Virus record (IMG/VR): IMGVR_UViG_3300046820_000327
Span: 1 to 60,395 of that record
From: a virus
Strand: one strand, 5' to 3'
DNA length: 60,395 bases
Below, in pieces: positions 10,360 through 59,707 of this stretch (positions are counted from its first letter, which is position 1; each line of letters begins with the position of its first letter). Position numbers and translations under genes: made by a program. The notes beneath the pieces are model-generated. The model was not told where the DNA came from, searched no databases, and was given only the letters and a program-made list of their open reading frames with translations.

Positions 10360-11100
10360 TTATTTTTTCTCCAATTTACTGTCTATGTGCTTTTGTACAA
10401 TTTCTGCCCAGGCTTTCATGGCTTCCCACGCAGGGTGAAACCCGTCAGGGCAAAAACTATTTAATTCTTTGGCTAACTCAAAGTAGCCATCTTTGTGATC
10501 ATTATAAAATACCCAGTTACTGAAGTCAATGTGTTTGACCAATTCAGCGAGTGTATGATATTTATAAACACCGAAATTACTATTAACTATGTAGTCTTGA
10601 TTTGTCCAATAATTGATATAGCTCATAAACAAGTATGGTATACCACGTGCTTTCAAGAAGTGCTCTAACTTAATTATCTCCATTAGCCCACGGTAAGCAA
10701 ATACCAGTTCATTTCCAATTGTAAACATCTCTTTTTTGGCACGGGCTGTTGCGGCACTGGGAAAGTCTTGCATGCCGCCTGCAGGACTAAATCTTATGTC
10801 TTCTCGCACAGTCAGCATAGGCATTTTGTGATCATCCTGCACCGCTGGGTCTATTAAAAAGTCTTGGCGCTGTAGTCCAGACCACATCACTAAAACCATG
10901 TCAACAGATTTGCCCGACAGCACGTAATTAATCACGCTGTCTGCAATATATTCGTTGCCTGCTCCGGGAACTGCTAGATTAGTGATATTGCCCAGATGGT
11001 TTAGAGGTAAACTCCAAGTGCCATCTGGTATATCATAGAATCCTGGTCCAGTAAAACTACAACCAGATACCAGTAGATTTAAATTACGCACGATTCGCAA
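10360..11100 (-). CDS. SGNH-hydrolase-like protein (GCSF type), copy 1
   Basis: 246 aa. Residues 13-16 are GCSF, which replaces the GDSL block with Ser15 as the likely nucleophile. VPGAGNEY supplies the Gly/Asn oxyanion blocks, and CPDGFHPAW near the C-terminus gives the Asp/His pair. Such proteins are esterases or acetyl-hydrolases, often acting on sugars. The gene lies between nrdA and nrdB and overlaps nrdA by 22 nt. The substrate is unknown. Two more GCSF proteins occur in the window. Confidence 0.7.
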   Translation of the reverse strand: MRIVRNLNLLVSGCSFTGPGFYDIPDGTWSLPLNHLGNITNLAVPGAGNEYIADSVINYVLSGKSVDMVLVMWSGLQRQDFLIDPAVQDDHKMPMLTVREDIRFSPAGGMQDFPSAATARAKKEMFTIGNELVFAYRGLMEIIKLEHFLKARGIPYLFMSYINYWTNQDYIVNSNFGVYKYHTLAELVKHIDFSNWVFYNDHKDGYFELAKELNSFCPDGFHPAWEAMKAWAEIVQKHIDSKLEKK

Positions 11101-13391
11101 GCGTCCTGTCCGTCATCTGGCAGTGGGTCGTTTGCTGGTGCTTCGGCCTGTTTAGATAGTTTATCTACGTCAATTTCGCCTTGACCATCGTTGGTGTTAA
11201 AATAATACAGTTGTTTTGTTCCGTACTTGTAGCACATGATTAAGTGCTTGAGCATCTCACTCATTGGAATCTTTTCATCTTCGTAGAAACGAGGATTGTA
11301 CGAAGTATTGATACTAATGCCTTGGTCAATGTATTTCTGCAATACTGCACAAAGTTTTAGGTAGCCTTCTGGTGATTGTTGATCCCATAATAGTTCGTAT
11401 TTGTTTTTTAGTTTTCTAAATTCTGGAACTACTTGTTTTAATACGCCATGTTTGCTTTGTTTAATACTAACATAACTACGTGGAGGTTCAATGCCGTTGG
11501 TAGCATTAGAGATCTGAGCACTTGTTTCTGCTGGCATTAATGCCATTAGTGTTGCATTACGGATGCCATATTGTTTAATTTGTTCACGTAACTGTCCCCA
11601 AGGCATACGCTCTTGGTGTGGTACTAGTTCGTCAACGTCTTTCTTGTATGTGTCGATAGGCAATAGGCCTTGAGCATATTTTAGTTCTTGCCACTTGATG
11701 CAAGGTCCTTGCTCAATGGCCAAGTCAGCCGATGCTTTGATCAAGTAGTACGACCATGCTTCTGCATATTCATCTACTAATGCCAATGCACGTGGATCGC
11801 TGTAGCTTACATCATTCTTAGCCAAGAAGTATGCAAAGTTAATGATGCCGATACCTAGTGGACGGAATTCCATTGTTGCTAATTCTGCGGCTTTAACTGG
11901 ATATCCTTGGTATGATAGTAAAGCATCTAATCCACGTACCGCTAGTGTTGCCATCTTCTCAAAGTCTTGAGGTTGTTTTACATTACCCCAGTTTGCGGCA
12001 CTTAATGTACAAAGAGCAATACGACCTAGTTCATCGTTAATGTCAGTTAAAGGAACTGTTGGCAAGTCAATTTCGCAACATAGATTACTTTGTTTAACTG
12101 GGTGTAGCTTTTCGTTGAACGGACTGTGTGTATTAGCATGATCTACGTTTTGCAAATAGATACGACCTGTGTCTTTGCGTTCTTGCATAAACTTGGCAAA
12201 CAAGTCAATGGCTTTGATAGTTTTCTTGCGTAGTTTAGTGTTGCGTTCAGAGCGTTCATATAGTTCTTTGAACTTGTCTTGATCGTTAAAAAACGCTTCG
12301 TACATCTCAGGAACATCGTGTGGGCTAAACAATGTAATGTCGCCACCTGTGATTAAACGTTCGTACATCAATTTGTTGAACTGTACACCATAGTCCATTT
12401 GACGCACACGATTGTCTTCTGTGCCTTTGTTGTTCTTTAGTACCAGTAGGTCTTCTACTTCATAGTGCCAAATTGGATAGTAAAGTGTTGCGGCGCCGTT
12501 GCGTACACCACCTTGACTACAACTGCGTGTTGCTGATTGGAATAACTTGTAAAAAGGAATTACACCCGTATGGTAGGCGTCGCCGCTACGGATAGGCGAA
12601 CCCAAAGCCCTAATTCGTCCTGCACCAATACCAATTCCGGCTTTTTGGCTGACATACTTAACGATACTACTAGTAGTGGCATTGATACTATCAAGACTGT
12701 CATCAGTCTCAATGAGAACGCAACTACTGAATTGTTTTTGCGGAGTGCGTACACCGGCCATAACAGGAGTAGGCAAGCTGATATCAAAATTACTAATTGC
12801 ATCATAGTAGTCCTTAACCCACTGCAGGCGTGTTTCTTTAGGATAGCTTTGGAATAGTGTTGCTGAAATCAACATGTAAGCCACTTGAGGGGTTTCGTAG
12901 ATTTCTTTGGTCACACGATTTTGAACCAAATACTTGCCTCTCCACTGCTCCATGGCCACATAAGTAAACTGCTCATCACGATCGTGACGTATATAGGAAT
13001 TTAATTGATCCCACTCGGCGTCCGAGTAGGCTGTTAGTAAATCTTTGTCATAGTAGCCAATTTCAACATTACGCTTGACCAGCTGGATTAGTGGCCAAGG
13101 CTGATAGTTGCCATATACTTGTTTACGCAAGTGATAGCCCACAAGACGACCTGCAACATATTGATAGTTAGGAGCTTCCTCGCTGATTAAGTCTGCGGCG
13201 CTCTTAATTAAAGTTTCTTGTATGTCTGCTGTTTTAATACCAGTATAGAATTGCACATGACTATTGATTTCTACTTCGCTAGCACTGACTCCTGTGATTC
13301 CTTCTGTGGCCCAAAATACAACTTTGTGTAGCTTTTCAATATCTAGCGGCTCTCGACGTCCGTCTCGTTTTGTGACTAATATTTGACTCAT
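11079..13391 (-). CDS. nrdA: Class Ia ribonucleotide reductase alpha subunit
   Basis: 770 aa, the usual length. An N-terminal ATP-cone (residues about 1-95) suggests dATP/ATP activity control. Key residues are visible: SSCVLIETDDSLDS with the first redox Cys (about 224), NLCCEIDLP with the Asn, radical Cys and Glu, and the C-terminal CESCVI pair that exchanges electrons with glutaredoxin. The enzyme supplies dNDPs for phage replication together with NrdB and the glutaredoxin downstream. Confidence 0.96.
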   Translation of the reverse strand: MSQILVTKRDGRREPLDIEKLHKVVFWATEGITGVSASEVEINSHVQFYTGIKTADIQETLIKSAADLISEEAPNYQYVAGRLVGYHLRKQVYGNYQPWPLIQLVKRNVEIGYYDKDLLTAYSDAEWDQLNSYIRHDRDEQFTYVAMEQWRGKYLVQNRVTKEIYETPQVAYMLISATLFQSYPKETRLQWVKDYYDAISNFDISLPTPVMAGVRTPQKQFSSCVLIETDDSLDSINATTSSIVKYVSQKAGIGIGAGRIRALGSPIRSGDAYHTGVIPFYKLFQSATRSCSQGGVRNGAATLYYPIWHYEVEDLLVLKNNKGTEDNRVRQMDYGVQFNKLMYERLITGGDITLFSPHDVPEMYEAFFNDQDKFKELYERSERNTKLRKKTIKAIDLFAKFMQERKDTGRIYLQNVDHANTHSPFNEKLHPVKQSNLCCEIDLPTVPLTDINDELGRIALCTLSAANWGNVKQPQDFEKMATLAVRGLDALLSYQGYPVKAAELATMEFRPLGIGIINFAYFLAKNDVSYSDPRALALVDEYAEAWSYYLIKASADLAIEQGPCIKWQELKYAQGLLPIDTYKKDVDELVPHQERMPWGQLREQIKQYGIRNATLMALMPAETSAQISNATNGIEPPRSYVSIKQSKHGVLKQVVPEFRKLKNKYELLWDQQSPEGYLKLCAVLQKYIDQGISINTSYNPRFYEDEKIPMSEMLKHLIMCYKYGTKQLYYFNTNDGQGEIDVDKLSKQAEAPANDPLPDDGQDACESCVI

Positions 13392-53321: not shown

Positions 53322-54260
53322 TTAGAAACGATGTGTTAAACCAACACCATACCGCTGTGCTTGGTTAGCTCTTGCTGGAGCATCTTGATTTTGGTAAGCA
53401 ATATCAACTGCTGTACGCTTGCTGAAGTTATAAGCAAAACCCACTGTGGATGTTTTTTGATCCACAACATCTTTTACACCATAACCAATTTTAAAATCAA
53501 CTTTGGTTGTGACTGGGTGCAACGCACTCAATGACCATGCTTTGTAATCAACATTAGAGATTTTGTCTTGGCTGTAGCCAGCAAATACTCGTGTTTTAGT
53601 TGGCAATGTGTATGCCGCATTTAACAATGTTGTTTCATCTGTGCCAGCTGTAGTGTAACGGAAAGCACCAAGGTGTAGGTCTTTTACTGGATTCAACACA
53701 GTATAAAATACTTGTGTATCTTCTACAGTTGCACTTTCACTTTGGCCGTTTTGGTAACCAACGATTACGCCTGCAATTGGGGTGGCTTCAATGAAAATAC
53801 CATTACCGATACGGTTGTTACGATAAGAGTGAGTTTTGTTTGCGGCACTGAACAATGGCAATACTGCAAATGCATCAAAGCGTGATTTACCGTACTGGAA
53901 CATGGCATTGTCCTTACGGCCCATATCAATGCTACCAAATTTATTTGATAGACCTACTGTACTTTGACGATCACCAAATTTACTGGCATCAGCCGATGCT
54001 GGGTTATCTGCGGCAATGCTGGTATCAATCATGAAGTTTGCACGTATACCGTCGCCTAAATCTTCAGAACCTCTGAAGAAGATGTTGCTGGTGTTGCTGT
54101 CAATTTGTGTTGCCTTGGCACTACCTGCACTGGTATTATTTGTAAAATACTGACTGATACGACCACCAATTTGCACATTTGACGAAGCAAGTACATTTGT
54201 CTGTGCTTGAGCGCCAACTGCTGTGGCCAAAAGACCAACTGCTAATAGTTTCTTAAACAT
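53322..54260 (-). CDS. Outer-membrane porin (betaproteobacterial type)
   Basis: 312 aa. MFKKLLAVGLLATAVGAQA is a signal peptide (cut before QT). The mature protein is a general porin: GGRISQYFTN, FRGSEDLGDGIRANFMIDTS, and DRQSTVGLSNKFGSIDMGRK. It ends in YGVGLTHRF with the terminal Phe that BamA recognises. It is a bit shorter than Burkholderiales porins (340-400 aa). It has a strong ribosome-binding site (AAAGGAG), its own promoter and its own terminator, so it can be expressed independently. It would change outer-membrane permeability or replace a receptor. Confidence 0.93.
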   Translation of the reverse strand: MFKKLLAVGLLATAVGAQAQTNVLASSNVQIGGRISQYFTNNTSAGSAKATQIDSNTSNIFFRGSEDLGDGIRANFMIDTSIAADNPASADASKFGDRQSTVGLSNKFGSIDMGRKDNAMFQYGKSRFDAFAVLPLFSAANKTHSYRNNRIGNGIFIEATPIAGVIVGYQNGQSESATVEDTQVFYTVLNPVKDLHLGAFRYTTAGTDETTLLNAAYTLPTKTRVFAGYSQDKISNVDYKAWSLSALHPVTTKVDFKIGYGVKDVVDQKTSTVGFAYNFSKRTAVDIAYQNQDAPARANQAQRYGVGLTHRF

Positions 54261-54293: not shown

Positions 54294-54323
54294 ATTTTAC
54301 ACAACAGGACACTACGGTGTCAA
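54294..54323 (-). promoter_or_regulatory. Porin promoter TTGACA-18-TAAAAT
   Basis: TTGACA (54318-54323), 18 bp, TAAAAT (54294-54299) preceded by TGTG on the minus strand, giving a leader of about 27 nt. The layout equals the promoter at 58623-58652. Confidence 0.8.
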
Positions 54324-54477: not shown

Positions 54478-54942
54478 TTATTTTTTGTTCAAATACTCAT
54501 CTATATGACTTTGTATTTGTGGCCTACGTTTTCCGTTATAATATGCTTGATGTGTTGGGCACAACGGCACAATATTATGGTCCGATGCGTCAGTTTCGTC
54601 ACCGTTGACAGCAACAATGTTCACCAATTTTTCTTCCCCGCATACACAGCAACGTTTTTCAATCTTAGTTAAATCTGGTAGCTGTATGTCGCGTTTTTGT
54701 TCATGACTCCAACGCTCAAGATACTGTTTGATTGCTGGTAATACATCCTCGGGCCAGTGACTGTGCAAATACCTGTGGTGTGTTGGGCACAATGGCAATA
54801 CATTTTCTGGGCGTTGATCCGTTTCTACTTCGTTCATGTGATGCACGTCTAGTACGCCATCCTCTCCGCATACTACGCATTTACGCTCATGGTGCTGAAA
54901 ACACACCCATCTAAATCCATTTTGAAAGTCTGTAATTTCCAT
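54478..54942 (-). CDS. Tandem HNH-type nuclease domain protein
   Basis: 154 aa with two similar halves. The first (residues about 22-60) has CVVCGEDGVLDVHHMNEV and NVLPLCPTHHRYLHSH, a complete HNH zinc-bound nuclease site. The second (about 97-140) has CCVCGEEKLVNIVAVNGDET and NIVPLCPTHQAYYN: the Cys pairs remain, but the catalytic HH is lost. It may be active only through the first half. The start overlaps the halogenase stop by one base. It could be a homing-type or packaging-type nuclease. Confidence 0.75.
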   Translation of the reverse strand: MEITDFQNGFRWVCFQHHERKCVVCGEDGVLDVHHMNEVETDQRPENVLPLCPTHHRYLHSHWPEDVLPAIKQYLERWSHEQKRDIQLPDLTKIEKRCCVCGEEKLVNIVAVNGDETDASDHNIVPLCPTHQAYYNGKRRPQIQSHIDEYLNKK

Positions 54943-56600
54943 TATTTTCTACTCCTAAATTCGTCAAAAATTTCTCTACTGCTTTTGCCATCAAACCTAT
55001 TAGCTCGTAACCACTCGTACGCATTAGGCCACTTTAGTGATCTTATGTACTTGTTGCGAGCACGGTTAAATGCAAAATAGGCTTGTGCCATTTCAATATC
55101 TTCTTTGGTCGGAACTGCAAACGGCCAGTTTTTAACTTCTGTCTTGGTCTGGATAGCCATTTTAACATAGATATGTTCCCAATAGTTCAAGTAACGTTTG
55201 CTGATATCTGTTTTTTGTTCAGTTAAAATTTGTTCAAAGTCTTCAATTAAGTTAAACTTCCTAGCCGCTTCTCTACGCTTTTCCCAATACAATCCAGACC
55301 GATTACTGAATCCGTGATGTGTGCGTACACGAAGATCTCTCTCGGCCGTAATACGACAACGATTTTCGTTAAACAAATCTCTGCCAGCCTCAATAGTTGT
55401 TTCGCCAGACTGCAATTGCTTGCGTACTTTAATCAGATCCTCGAGTCCCTTAGTGTGCTCGCTAAAGGTAGGTGCGTCCCAAGGATCGCTTAGGCCCGAA
55501 CTAACTCCAAGTTGAATACAGTTATGATTCCATGTCTTGCTGTAAAAGCCCGGCTTCCATTGAATAAGTCTAGGTTCTACTATGCGAGTACCATCAGTAA
55601 CTTTTTTGATACGCTCGAGGGTCACTTCTGGATCTACCCAGTTGCTGTTAAACACATATCCGTTGCCGCGGCGATGATATAGATTTAATTGAAAACGCCA
55701 CCCGTGGTCCTCACCATGAATGTTAGTAGCACAAATCATTTCTTTATGTGGATCTGTGTAATGGCTGGGACATACCCACGCACTGTTATTAGTGTATTCT
55801 GCTCTATCCTGCCAACTGGTGTTGCCAATTTTGTTAGTTAATACGCGACCAAAACCTGTACAGTCAATGTACAAGTCTGCTTGAAGTTTTTCTAAGTTGT
55901 CATCACGAACAATATAGTCAATACTGCCACTGTTGGTTAACCCAACGTCTTTTACGTTGGTCAAAATATGTGTTAAGTTGCCAGTGTTGCGTTGATAGCA
56001 CTGGCTTTTTAATAAGCTGACCATTTGTTCAGCGTCCATGTGGAAGCTGGTGCCACCATAGTGACGTATAATCTTTTTATTATTTTCGTCATAGGGCACA
56101 CATGGATTTTGCACAAAGTATTGAGTATCCTGCAGTTCTACCAAGAAGTCGTCCATGGTTTTACCACCGGGCTTGTTTAACAAGTCCTTGTTTAAGTACA
56201 ACCAAACATTGGCCACACCCATGTCGCCATCTTGTTTGTTCCAATGCTCATAGACATCATTATAGTCAATTCCATTAAAGTAATTGACCAGGCCCTTGAT
56301 TTTTACGTTGGTTAACTGGCCGTTGCCTATGTCTTCTCCGTCGTTCAGGAAACCAAAGTTGCGAACACCAAACTTGTATATGCTACCGGTTTCCCTCATG
56401 ATCAACTGATCGTTATCAATTCCCAGCAAATCTCTCCAAACATAAGGACTTTCAAACCCCAATGTTTCGCCAACTCCTAGTCTAGGAATAGTTGGAGACT
56501 CTAGTACTGTTATACGCAGGTCAGGGCAATGGTTCTGTAGTGCCAGTGCCGTAAACCATCCTGCAAAACCTCCACCTACTATAGCTACGTGATTGATCAT
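54942..56600 (-). CDS. Flavin-dependent tryptophan-halogenase-like enzyme
   Basis: 552 aa, the family's normal length. GGGFAGWFTALAL (residues 9-21) binds FAD, LGVGETLGFE (41-50) is the GVGE motif, and GSIYKFGVRNF places the catalytic Lys at 76 (Lys79 in PrnA/RebH). The GWxWxIP motif is changed to GWRFQLNLYHRRGNGYVFNS, so it lacks the second Trp and the Ile-Pro. Such enzymes chlorinate or brominate indole rings with FADH2 from a separate reductase. Related genes occur in cyanophages. The substrate and even the reaction are open. Confidence 0.8.
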   Translation of the reverse strand: MINHVAIVGGGFAGWFTALALQNHCPDLRITVLESPTIPRLGVGETLGFESPYVWRDLLGIDNDQLIMRETGSIYKFGVRNFGFLNDGEDIGNGQLTNVKIKGLVNYFNGIDYNDVYEHWNKQDGDMGVANVWLYLNKDLLNKPGGKTMDDFLVELQDTQYFVQNPCVPYDENNKKIIRHYGGTSFHMDAEQMVSLLKSQCYQRNTGNLTHILTNVKDVGLTNSGSIDYIVRDDNLEKLQADLYIDCTGFGRVLTNKIGNTSWQDRAEYTNNSAWVCPSHYTDPHKEMICATNIHGEDHGWRFQLNLYHRRGNGYVFNSNWVDPEVTLERIKKVTDGTRIVEPRLIQWKPGFYSKTWNHNCIQLGVSSGLSDPWDAPTFSEHTKGLEDLIKVRKQLQSGETTIEAGRDLFNENRCRITAERDLRVRTHHGFSNRSGLYWEKRREAARKFNLIEDFEQILTEQKTDISKRYLNYWEHIYVKMAIQTKTEVKNWPFAVPTKEDIEMAQAYFAFNRARNKYIRSLKWPNAYEWLRANRFDGKSSREIFDEFRSRK

Positions 56601-56603
56601 ATA

Positions 56604-57698
56604 TTATATCTCATAAAAAGGCGTTATCATGCCATGAAAGTTATTACTGGCAGCATTAAAGTATTGGCTGTCTACTAGACTTTTAATTAGTTCGAGGCCT
56701 TGACTATGTTGAGTTTTTAAAACATCGTCGCTGTTTAGTATGCCTTTGTCTGAACTAACTGTTGTGTCTGTGCTTTTTCTTAACTGAAACCAATTTGGGT
56801 TCCAGGTTGGATAAACTTGCTCTCTAACCACCGACTGATAATAGTCAATGGGTATACCTGGTGTAGGTGGCCAAGAAATCAAGGAATGCAGTTCTGGGCG
56901 AGCCTGGAAATATCGTTTTAGCATGTGTGCTTGTTTTCTTAATATAGGCTCAGCTTCAGGTGCCCAATAAAACCATTCAGTTTCTGCATTGCCTACTTGT
57001 GCTTGATCGGGAGTCATACTATATCCCACTACATCAAGAAAGTAAATGTAGTACTTACCGTCTTTGATTACTATTCTAGGCTTATCAACTCCCATTATGT
57101 AACCAACACGATTCTTTGTGTGTACGCTATCAATATGCTGTAGTGATCTGCGTTGCTCAATAAAAGGATTAAGCATGACGTTACGATTGTCCCAGAAATC
57201 TTCTGGCAGTGACAGGTCTCGGTGTTCCCACCAATCGTACAAGGTTAACTTAATGTCAGGGTATTGCTGTGAGATCCATTGAAAATCTATCTTGGCTCTA
57301 AATTCCCACTCGGCAGTTACGTTGTTGCTGTAGTGCCATTCCGTGGTTGTGGCTTCGTAATTGTTGCCCATGCCCTTGTAGCTGTATCTACTTACTATTT
57401 CATCTAGCTTGATATTGTTTTGTAAAAATACATCTAGTATATTTCTACTGTCCGATCCACCACTGTAACCTAGTATCAGATAGTCGTAAGTATCACGTAA
57501 TTGTTGAGCACGTTGTCGGTACAGTTCCCACAAACTTTCTGTGGGTTCTTGTTTCCACTTAACTTGATCAAAAAACTCGCGATGAAACACCCACTCAGGG
57601 TGGGTGTTTGTTTCTGTTCCTTTAAGTAGAGCAGGTATCTTGTGCTGATATTCCTGTGCGCCTACTCGATAAAAACCTAATCGCTTGTTAATTTGCAC
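56604..57698 (-). CDS. PP-loop (asparagine-synthase-like) ATP-pyrophosphatase
   Basis: 364 aa. LILGYSGGSDSRNILDVF (about residues 73-90) is the SGGxDS PP-loop that binds ATP and adenylates a substrate. The rest is unlike asparagine synthetase or QueC: no glutaminase domain is present, and Trp-rich helices follow (WPPTPGIPIDYYQSVV). Adenylation of a carboxylate or a nucleobase and then amide or other bond formation is expected. The gene lies 3 nt before the halogenase gene and overlaps the Bug gene by 11 nt, so a joint pathway is likely. Confidence 0.75.
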   Translation of the reverse strand: MQINKRLGFYRVGAQEYQHKIPALLKGTETNTHPEWVFHREFFDQVKWKQEPTESLWELYRQRAQQLRDTYDYLILGYSGGSDSRNILDVFLQNNIKLDEIVSRYSYKGMGNNYEATTTEWHYSNNVTAEWEFRAKIDFQWISQQYPDIKLTLYDWWEHRDLSLPEDFWDNRNVMLNPFIEQRRSLQHIDSVHTKNRVGYIMGVDKPRIVIKDGKYYIYFLDVVGYSMTPDQAQVGNAETEWFYWAPEAEPILRKQAHMLKRYFQARPELHSLISWPPTPGIPIDYYQSVVREQVYPTWNPNWFQLRKSTDTTVSSDKGILNSDDVLKTQHSQGLELIKSLVDSQYFNAASNNFHGMITPFYEI

Positions 57699-58602
57699 GT
57701 AAAAACTTTGCTAGTTGTTCAATTTTGGCTTGGCTTTGTTGCGGTGTACCATCCACTACATTGTGATAAGGTGCTGTACGCTTAAGGAAACTCTGCACGT
57801 CGTCGCTGTGTATAGCTTTACGCAATCTTTTGTTTAATTCAAGCACGTCTGCATCCGAGGCATCAGTTCTAGCAAAAAGAATAACCATGCTGGTGATATT
57901 CTCAATGTCTGGCCAACGCTTGATTAAATTTTCTGTTGTGCTTCTATCTCCAGTAACACTGGCATGTGCAATTTCTTTAATACCAGTTACACCCGACATC
58001 ATTCTAATACTACCACCATCAACGTATGTCTCAAGAGAACCGTCTTTAAGATTAACAAGTGCGTCAGTTGGCTTTCTATAAAGAACCAACTCGTACTTAG
58101 CACCAACATGATCTAGTGCATGAGTTAAAACCTTGCTACTGGTTAATGCAGGTGCACCAACTAAAATTGGCTTTCCTGTTTGACGACTACGTGCTATTAC
58201 TGCATCCAATGTTGCTGGACCACCTTCTGGTGTTAAGATAAACTGCGTGAATTTCAAATAATCCACTATAGGTTTAAGTGTATTAACAGCCGGGGATTGT
58301 GCATTGGCTTTTTGATTAAATCCAGCTACACCGTTACCAGCACAGAAGATTGCCGGCTCAGTGCTTTTAATAAACTCACGATGTGCAATAATTTGATCTG
58401 CACCAGTCATATTTTTATGAATTACATTGACATTGTTTTGTTTTGCGTAAGTATCCATTAGATTTCTACACATAACATCCACAACGCTACCAACTGCAAA
58501 AGGTGTATATACTGCTAATGTTTCAGTTTTTATAATTGAGCCGGGCTGTGCAAATGCTGTAGTTGATACAACAGCCAAGGCTAAAAGGATCTTTTTGATC
58601 AT
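57688..58602 (-). CDS. Bug/TctC periplasmic solute-binding protein 1
   Basis: 304 aa from Met 58602 (MIKKILLALAVVSTTAFAQP), which is 7 nt behind AGGAG; an earlier Met at 58632 lies upstream of that site. The signal peptide is cut after AFA. The mature part follows the TctC/Bug fold: ETLAVYTPFAVGSVVDVMCR, the NMTGADQIIAHREF segment (usually GAGGxIAA) and a long C-terminal helix. Bug proteins bind carboxylates or amino acids and hand them to TTT transporters. They are abundant in Burkholderiales. It heads the halogenase operon. Confidence 0.85.
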   Translation of the reverse strand: MIKKILLALAVVSTTAFAQPGSIIKTETLAVYTPFAVGSVVDVMCRNLMDTYAKQNNVNVIHKNMTGADQIIAHREFIKSTEPAIFCAGNGVAGFNQKANAQSPAVNTLKPIVDYLKFTQFILTPEGGPATLDAVIARSRQTGKPILVGAPALTSSKVLTHALDHVGAKYELVLYRKPTDALVNLKDGSLETYVDGGSIRMMSGVTGIKEIAHASVTGDRSTTENLIKRWPDIENITSMVILFARTDASDADVLELNKRLRKAIHSDDVQSFLKRTAPYHNVVDGTPQQSQAKIEQLAKFLRAN

Positions 58603-58622
58603 AGATATTCTCCTAGTAAGTA

Positions 58623-58652
58623 AGTTTAACATATTGCTAGTAGGATTGTCTA
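58623..58652 (-). promoter_or_regulatory. Promoter of the Bug/halogenase operon
   Basis: TAGACA (58647-58652), 18 bp, TAAACT (58623-58628) with TGT before it on the minus strand. The leader to ATG 58602 is about 14 nt and contains the AGGAG site. Confidence 0.65.
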
Positions 58653-58756
58653 CATACGGAGCGGCGTTCTGGGCATATCATGCCAGTAAAAGAGTTTTAC
58701 TACTCTTAGCGTCACTATTGTAACCGACGTCAACAGAATGTTGGCGTTGCTTTAAA

Positions 58757-58764
58757 TATTTATC
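58757..58764 (-). promoter_or_regulatory. Late promoter motif GATAAATA
   Basis: GATAAATATT on the minus strand overlaps the end of the hairpin that follows the second Bug gene. ATG 58602 is about 155 nt downstream. Confidence 0.55.
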
Positions 58765-58782
58765 TCCCCGAAGGGAGATAAA
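58759..58782 (-). terminator. Terminator-like hairpin after Bug gene 2
   Basis: Perfect 10-bp stem TTTATCTCCC/GGGAGATAAA with a TTCG loop on the minus strand, but no long T-tract after it (TATTTAAAG). It probably gives partial termination or protects the 3' end. Confidence 0.65.
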
Positions 58783-58792
58783 CTTGATTTAA

Positions 58793-59707
58793 TTAATTTG
58801 ATACTTTAACGTTTTGAGTTAAACGTTTCCATTGAGAAATTTGTCCACTAAACCATGCATCCAATTGATTGTCTGCCATTTGATTATTAGGAGTACAATT
58901 GTCAGCGGCATTTGCGTCTTTTACGCTCTGTGCTCTGCTGGCTTCTACTAAAATCTTTCGGATACTAGCAAATTTTTCTGCAGGCATCTTTTGAGATGCA
59001 AAGATCTGTTGAGGTGTGCTCATGTCTAGTAATTCTTTGCTGAATCCTTGATTGGCCAATAGCTCTGTGCCTTTGACACTAACTTTACCAGTCTGGCCTA
59101 ACCAGTAAATTCTTTTTACCGATGTTGCATCTGTGTACTGCTCGCTGTCACCATGAAATCCCACGCTAAAATCAACTGCTCCACTTAAAACACCTAACAG
59201 GGCTTCGCTGGTACTCTTAAATGGTACAATGGTTAGGTTAGGATAGTTTTTAGCAATCTGGATGGATACTAAGTGTGTGGTTGTCCCCATACCGCTCATA
59301 CCAATTGATAGTTGTGCATTGGGTGGAACTTCTTTCCATGACTTGTACTTTGCACTAGAAATAACAAAAGGTGAAATGCACATTGGCAAAATACTACGGA
59401 AATCTTCCATACGGTGGCTGTCGGCAGGGAATAGGTTAGGACGAATAAAACCAGCCGAACTATTAATCCACAGGGTATTTGTTGGGTTGTTGTTTGTATA
59501 ATTGGCCGCAATAGTACCACCAGCACCGGGCTTTGTATCGAACACAAAATTGTATTGTGTTTGCAATTTGTTTGATTCTTCGGCTAATGCTCGATAATAA
59601 TTTGATGCTTTATCGGCTGCTGTCCACGAGTAGGCCAGTGTAATAGTCTCACGTGCTGTGGCTGTAAAACTGAGGGTTGCTAAAATAATAGCTATTAATT
59701 TTTTCAT
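58793..59707 (-). CDS. Bug/TctC periplasmic solute-binding protein 2
   Basis: 304 aa. MKKLIAIILATLSFTATA is the signal peptide. KPGAGGTIAANYTNNNPT matches the GAGGxIAA ligand loop better than copy 1, and SIGMSGMGTTTHLVSIQIAK and GAVDFSVGFHGDSEQY fit the domain-2 pattern. It delivers a carboxylate-type ligand to a host tripartite transporter. The two Bug proteins share low identity and are not a recent duplicate. It has an AAAGGAG site and lies 23 nt after dCMP deaminase. Confidence 0.88.
   Translation of the reverse strand: MKKLIAIILATLSFTATARETITLAYSWTAADKASNYYRALAEESNKLQTQYNFVFDTKPGAGGTIAANYTNNNPTNTLWINSSAGFIRPNLFPADSHRMEDFRSILPMCISPFVISSAKYKSWKEVPPNAQLSIGMSGMGTTTHLVSIQIAKNYPNLTIVPFKSTSEALLGVLSGAVDFSVGFHGDSEQYTDATSVKRIYWLGQTGKVSVKGTELLANQGFSKELLDMSTPQQIFASQKMPAEKFASIRKILVEASRAQSVKDANAADNCTPNNQMADNQLDAWFSGQISQWKRLTQNVKVSN

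Follow-up and report, generated by a model that had tools for sequence, protein, structure and literature searches.

The virus record IMGVR_UViG_3300046820_000327, analysed here over its whole 60,395 nt (the window), carries on its minus strand two neighbouring genes for solute-binding proteins (SBPs) of the TctC/Bug type, SBP2 and SBP1. Between them lies a copy of a structured leader RNA of about 110 nt. This copy 1 heads a gene series encoding SBP1, a PP-loop-like protein, a tryptophan-halogenase-family protein and an HNH-domain protein; copy 2 lies upstream of a porin gene (Table 1). A preliminary description of this DNA had placed the two binding proteins among phage genes, and the status of the record as viral agrees with this, as do its genes for ribonucleotide reductase, a DnaB-like helicase, a primase and tail proteins. 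The GC content of the SBP region (38-41%) is the same as that of the rest of the window, so that composition cannot decide whether the region came from a host.

Both open reading frames (ORFs) that had been pointed out, 57688-58632 and 58793-59707, were confirmed on the minus strand, and the family assignment proposed for their products also held. SBP2 matches the TctC profile PF03401 at 31.0 bits (gathering cut-off 27), and its profile matches in the PDB are TphC, Bug27 and BugD. SBP1 had no match in Pfam (E 0.1), PHROG or NCBIfam and does not reach the PF03401 gathering cut-off; since a Pfam match is lacking, we named it TctC-like on homology and fold. Its best match to another protein is a phage TctC (L139:2660-3565, phmmer E 8.1e-10) that itself passes PF03401 with 33.8 bits. 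When an AlphaFold model of SBP1, computed from an 18-row alignment (predicted local distance difference test score 80.4), was searched with Foldseek, the first 17 PDB matches were all TctC/Bug proteins, the best being TphC (E 4.9e-16). As judged from these alignments and the predicted fold, SBP1 is a TctC homolog. The two proteins were rightly called divergent, because they share only 35 of 274 aligned residues (13%). By eye alone, their N-termini resemble Sec signal peptides (MIKKILLALAVVSTTAFA/QP in SBP1 and MKKLIAIILATLSFTATA/RE in SBP2). The real start of SBP1 is probably the ATG at 58602, which is preceded by AGGAG; the ATG at 58632, at which the ORF opens, overlaps RNA copy 1. The view that Bug proteins are a hallmark of Burkholderiales was partly right, in that the sections of PMC5994714 used here describe expansions of the Bug/TctC family in beta- and also in alpha-proteobacteria.

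The RNA was noticed as a conserved stretch in the gap after SBP2 that recurs upstream of the window porin and in other contigs. A covariance model, R1, was built from a seed of 32 aligned copies, the window being left out, and comprises helices P2 and P3 and two inner hairpins. A search of the window with R1, filters off, found both copies; the next match scored 11.4 bits (E 0.36) and there was no third copy. Both copies had been seen by eye before the model was built, so this recovery tests the model and is not a blind discovery, and the E-values of R1, which come from a short calibration, are rough. In the seed, 13 of 20 base pairs show compensatory changes, 93.6% of the cells pair and 26 positions are invariant. 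The covariation score of the seed was 0.455, compared with 0.194 after shuffling (reached in 0 of 500 shuffles) and at most 0.125 when the pairing partners were slid. A second alignment, of 69 distinct sequences collected in a separate pattern scan, gave a score of 0.539, compared with 0.189 after shuffling (0/500), with compensatory changes in 14 of the 20 pairs; this alignment was fitted to R1 and so leans towards the model, and it shares a few contigs with the seed. The 124 unique elements include 5 for which parsing failed and 16 without CCGT (8 of these 16 have CGG). All 103 full-length copies have both sets of P3 bases, CGG and CCGT, and 102 of the 103 have the P4 hairpin, with a stem of at least 5 bp in 68 of these 102 (about 5 after shuffling). 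Helix P1 is hardly supported beyond GC/GC, the pairing of its flanks being little above that of swapped flanks. Since the folding z-scores of single sequences were unremarkable (-1.33 to +0.44 for six elements), the case for an RNA structure rests on covariation.

Many viral contigs contain the RNA, and none of the bacterial genomes scanned gave a convincing case. Among viral contigs, a pattern scan returned at least 119 stretches; the 118 loci among the matches listed (L086-L203) were searched with R1, which matched 74 times in one set of 80 loci and 35 times in the other 38. The RNA was found in 27 of 29 whole records, mostly as one copy and never as more than two with convincing scores. A pattern scan of 84,980 bacterial genomes gave 19 stretches, the best at 16.6 bits and none convincing; a 28.2-bit match in one of 399 order-level bacterial genomes (L253) resembled a chance hairpin on inspection. 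No Rfam 15 family reached its gathering score in the window or in 10 loci, and a search of 12 loci with a limit of E 0.5 gave none. That library presumably includes both the manA and the wcaG motif, to which we return below. A preQ1-II match over copy 2 was taken as chance (21.9 bits, gathering score 47, E 4.6). Blastn of two RNA sequences against GenBank phages gave no close relative, and we found no report of the RNA or of the cassette in the open-access papers searched.

We then asked which genes lie behind the RNA; all counts in this paragraph and the next are among the matches listed. From 151 matches, 124 sequences were unique and 119 of these had an ORF behind them. The downstream genes were clustered by BLAST and named from 20 representatives tested with Pfam, some of which (TauD, 20.2 bits) fall below the Pfam cut-off. 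The 119 ORFs comprised DctP-like proteins (47, a number inflated because many loci had been fetched with the DctP-like protein), TctC (27), PP-loop proteins (9), porins (5), TauD-like proteins (4), three each of SBP_bac_8, DUF2061, a hexapeptide transferase and a secreted unassigned protein, two each of AMP-binding proteins, TctA and a fatty-acid desaturase, and 9 genes that occur once, a tryptophan halogenase and an NMT1 protein among them. In the loci found by the RNA pattern only, where 5 of 82 unique elements have no ORF behind them, transport genes stand directly downstream of the RNA in 44 of 77 cases, compared with 123 of all 1190 genes there (Fisher p 8.8e-27, a value that is too small because related phages were treated as independent). 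The median distance from the end of R1 to the start codon is 24 nt, which leaves room for a ribosome-binding site and hardly for a terminator. TctA permease genes lie directly behind the RNA in two viral contigs (L118:575-1885 and L097:6455-7723; PF01970, 134 and 107 bits).

A box resembling the T4-late-type TATAAATA stands just 5' of the RNA. It matches at 7-8 of 8 positions in 76 of 118 elements, compared with about 19.5 for shuffled sequence, and 67 of these 76 boxes lie at -14/-13. A perfect TATAAATA is not in excess in the window. The late promoter of T4-like phages is given as TATAAAT in the part of PMC9004378 used here. A strong 10-bp hairpin with a TTCG loop (58759-58782) separates RNA copy 1 from the stop codon of SBP2 and possibly ends the upstream transcript.

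Table 1. Features of the window discussed in the text (positions within the 60,395-nt record)
Feature	Position	Strand	Basis
SBP2, TctC/Bug-family periplasmic solute-binding protein, 304 aa, predicted signal peptide	58793..59707	-	PF03401; PDB profile matches; 8 viral orthologs
T4-late-type box GATAAATA, 7/8 match to TATAAATA, at -14 from the first conserved G of the RNA	58757..58764	-	sequence
Structured leader RNA copy 1, 4 modelled helices and conserved core, between SBP2 and SBP1	58630..58756	-	model R1, 93.8 bits, E 2.4e-26
SBP1, divergent TctC-like solute-binding protein, 304 aa from ATG 58602, predicted signal peptide	57688..58602 (ORF open from 58632)	-	phmmer, Foldseek
PP-loop-like protein (SGGSDS motif), overlaps the end of SBP1	56604..57698	-	no Pfam match; homologs beside TctC in L002-L008
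Tryptophan-halogenase-family flavoprotein, same operon as SBP1	54942..56600	-	PF04820, 172.5 bits
HNH-domain protein, operon end	54478..54942	-	PF13391, 23.1 bits (cut-off 21)
Structured leader RNA copy 2, upstream of porin, middle hairpins replaced by a shorter segment	54347..54446	-	model R1, 37.0 bits, E 5.6e-9
Sigma-70-like promoter, TTGACA-18-TAAAAT, between RNA copy 2 and porin	54294..54323	-	11/12 consensus matches; consensus match only
Gram-negative porin (Porin_4)	53322..54260	-	PF13609, 100.3 bits

Related viral loci show similar gene neighbourhoods. The counts of TctC, TctA and PP-loop genes that follow refer to 203 locus windows (this window and L002-L203, overlapping ones kept). 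Two or more TctC genes occur in 25 of the 203, and a TctA-like gene, counted with a profile of our own and confirmed by Pfam in both representatives tested, in 23. A PP-loop gene lies within 2.2 kb of 89 of 136 TctC genes, compared with a total of 156 PP-loop genes among 2731 genes, and operons with TctA, TctC and a PP-loop gene were found. A fold search with the PP-loop protein of the window gave no match at E <=0.001; weak matches to LarE, GMP synthetase and NadE all had E >0.001. A relative of the tryptophan-halogenase-family protein lies directly 3' of the RNA in L135 (384-2021), so that such flavoproteins stand under the RNA in two phages, and a TorF-type porin is also present in L006 and L008. 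Contigs that carry SBP2 usually encode a PP-loop-like protein, SBP2 and then a DctP-family protein (PF03480, 134 bits), with exceptions such as L003, in which a second TctC lies in between. With the DctP-like protein as query, 77 viral loci were found, on contigs of up to 357 kb. These phage proteins, of the tripartite ATP-independent periplasmic (TRAP) transporter family, begin at the mature N-terminus right after the ribosome-binding site (L002:11058-12011, L008:11055-12011 and most other DctP loci). In L006 the gene is split into two ORFs (11041-11511 and 11508-11993, with a 4-bp overlap), the halves of such split genes being about 156-161 and 161-165 aa long; similar splits occur in L045, L046, L048, L052, L054-L059, L066, L069, L070, L074 and L075, and L047 and L082 have a second C-terminal half.

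The preliminary description had also spoken of T4-like phages. This was not shown for the window, since the T4-type major capsid protein Gp23 was not found in the 60-kb record, which may be a fragment; Gp23 occurs in 11 of 28 records bearing the RNA or the cassette, and 10 of these 11 are longer than 200 kb. Transfer-messenger RNA (tmRNA) genes lie near the module in four loci (L112:7699-8108, L149:6168-6505, L094:2511-2902 and L131:2260-2666; Rfam RF04321/RF01850). Because these genes are permuted and of betaproteobacterial type, they hint at betaproteobacterial hosts.

Orthologs of SBP2 were found by pattern scan in seven viral contigs at 72-80% identity, and an eighth contig has one at 66%. 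A scan of the same kind, which detects close relatives only, gave no relative of SBP1, and tblastn at E 0.01 matched neither protein in the GenBank phage set. The bacterial sample consisted of 200 genomes from one order, that of a Rhodocyclaceae metagenome-assembled genome. SBP2 was matched in 68 of these, the best-scoring match being 29% identical over residues 42-279, so that the search for close host relatives that had been suggested earlier found none for SBP2 in this sample. The window porin was matched, distantly, in 124 of the 200 (best bit score 62.6, 31% identity). For the single comparable ortholog pair (L003/L007), the ratio of nonsynonymous to synonymous substitution rates (dN/dS) was 0.095; dS was saturated in all six comparisons with the window. 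Because its viral orthologs are 66-80% identical and its best match in the 200 bacterial genomes only 29%, SBP2 is, on sequence comparison, an old phage lineage, neither a misassembly nor fresh host DNA.

These results lead us to propose, with a probability of about 0.68, that the window encodes a solute-uptake cassette, borne by the phage and placed under a shared 5' leader RNA. Transcripts would start at the RNA from the T4-late-like promoter, and the RNA would be a cis-acting regulator, possibly a metabolite-sensing switch that acts on translation, a level we favour in view of how little space remains for a terminator. The porin would let solutes into the periplasm during infection, the TctC proteins would capture organic acids there, and a TctA permease, of host or phage, would import them and so feed phage production. 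The idea that the genes form a coordinated set gains support, in that the same RNA precedes both the SBP1 operon and the porin and transport genes are enriched behind it elsewhere. The role given to the host's own membrane transporters was a guess; TctA was not found in the window, yet TctA is found next to TctC in many related phage loci, so that the permease may be phage-encoded elsewhere. Several observations weigh against our proposal. No RNA stands in front of SBP2; the porin copy is a reduced form of the RNA and its box is off-register, at -18; and the porin need not depend on the RNA, because a sigma-70-like promoter of its own lies between RNA and start. In addition, 33 of the 77 genes behind the RNA in the pattern-only loci, among the matches listed, are not transport genes, the DctP-like proteins have no visible signal peptide, a misfit with simple periplasmic capture, and neither TctA nor a complete tripartite tricarboxylate transporter (TTT) was found in the 60-kb record, which may be partial.

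The RNA shows one of the features expected of a riboswitch, a conserved covarying structure in the 5' untranslated regions of related genes. Tentatively, and at somewhat less than even odds, it may represent a new, phage-only riboswitch class that senses a metabolite, perhaps a carboxylate or a nitrogen signal, and switches on an uptake regulon of TctC, TctA, other binding proteins, porins, PP-loop proteins and halogenase enzymes; the virus would thereby read the metabolism of a starving host and re-open import at a late stage of infection. We regard it as rather unlikely that the RNA is no sensor and acts on selected transcripts as a 5' cap-like stabiliser or translational enhancer, or as an element that binds protein or cleaves itself. 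The box at a fixed distance 5' of the RNA would indeed make it the extreme 5' end of the mRNA, but 26 invariant seed positions exceed the needs of a protective stem-loop, and a general stabiliser would be expected across structural genes, in contrast to the strong enrichment of transport genes.

Periplasmic sensing instead of nutrient import is possible for the TctC proteins. That they have no part in transport and serve as periplasmic sensors, decoys or receptor blockers nevertheless seems improbable: TctC genes are often orphans in bacteria, the Bordetella BctDECBA system is described as having a sensory role (in the sections of PMC5994714 used here), and the absence of TctA from the window would fit, but related viral contigs repeatedly have TctC linked with TctA and porins, and Pfam showed no histidine kinase in the eight window proteins tested. 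Much less probable still is that the genes are neutral hitch-hikers under a generic phage leader, as the several non-transport genes behind the RNA might suggest, given the dN/dS value and the transport enrichment. Recent host DNA, contamination or misassembly we reject as very unlikely. The window is a single metagenomic record whose GC content does not discriminate, but the same genes and RNA occur in many independent viral contigs, bacterial matches are distant, and Gp23 is encoded in RNA- or cassette-bearing records; the absence from other phages that had been named as a sign of misassembly was not observed, two TctC genes standing together in a number of related locus windows. We thus retain an uptake cassette under a shared leader RNA as the preferred reading.

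Periplasmic binding proteins are known from phages in the form of PstS, the phosphate-binding protein of phosphate uptake of the ATP-binding cassette type. To our knowledge, no shared leader RNA is known for phage PstS. With the TTT/Bug proteins TphC, BugD, Bug27 and MatC, SBP1 and SBP2 have fold and family in common; unlike these, they are phage-borne, differ widely from each other and have no permease encoded in the window. A TTT component was also proposed as an auxiliary metabolic gene in the case of tctA on putative SUP05 viral contigs (PMC4164917); there, as far as the cited part of that report goes, it is a single domain-only match, whereas the clusters described here are organised, recur, and combine TctC, TctA and porin genes with the RNA. 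T4-like cyanophages provide one of the closest precedents for the RNA, their manA and wcaG motifs (PMC2864571). As presented in the portion of that paper used here, those belong to marine cyanophages and to sugar and photosynthesis genes, whereas the present RNA belongs to aquatic phages and transport genes and has no Rfam 15 match. A further phage-encoded RNA is the predicted glutamine riboswitch beside the tmRNA of methylophage Melnitz, a T4-like phage of aquatic bacteria (PMC9004378, in part); that riboswitch is of a known class, whereas the RNA described here matches none and precedes mostly transport genes.

Few phage-borne regulatory RNAs are known so far, and the metabolic genes of phages are mostly annotated one by one. 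With a shared leader RNA as an objective handle, a phage metabolic regulon can be defined and its members picked out of viromes that lack annotation. The RNA also brings the transport claim within reach of a test and lets one ask what phages sense in their hosts.

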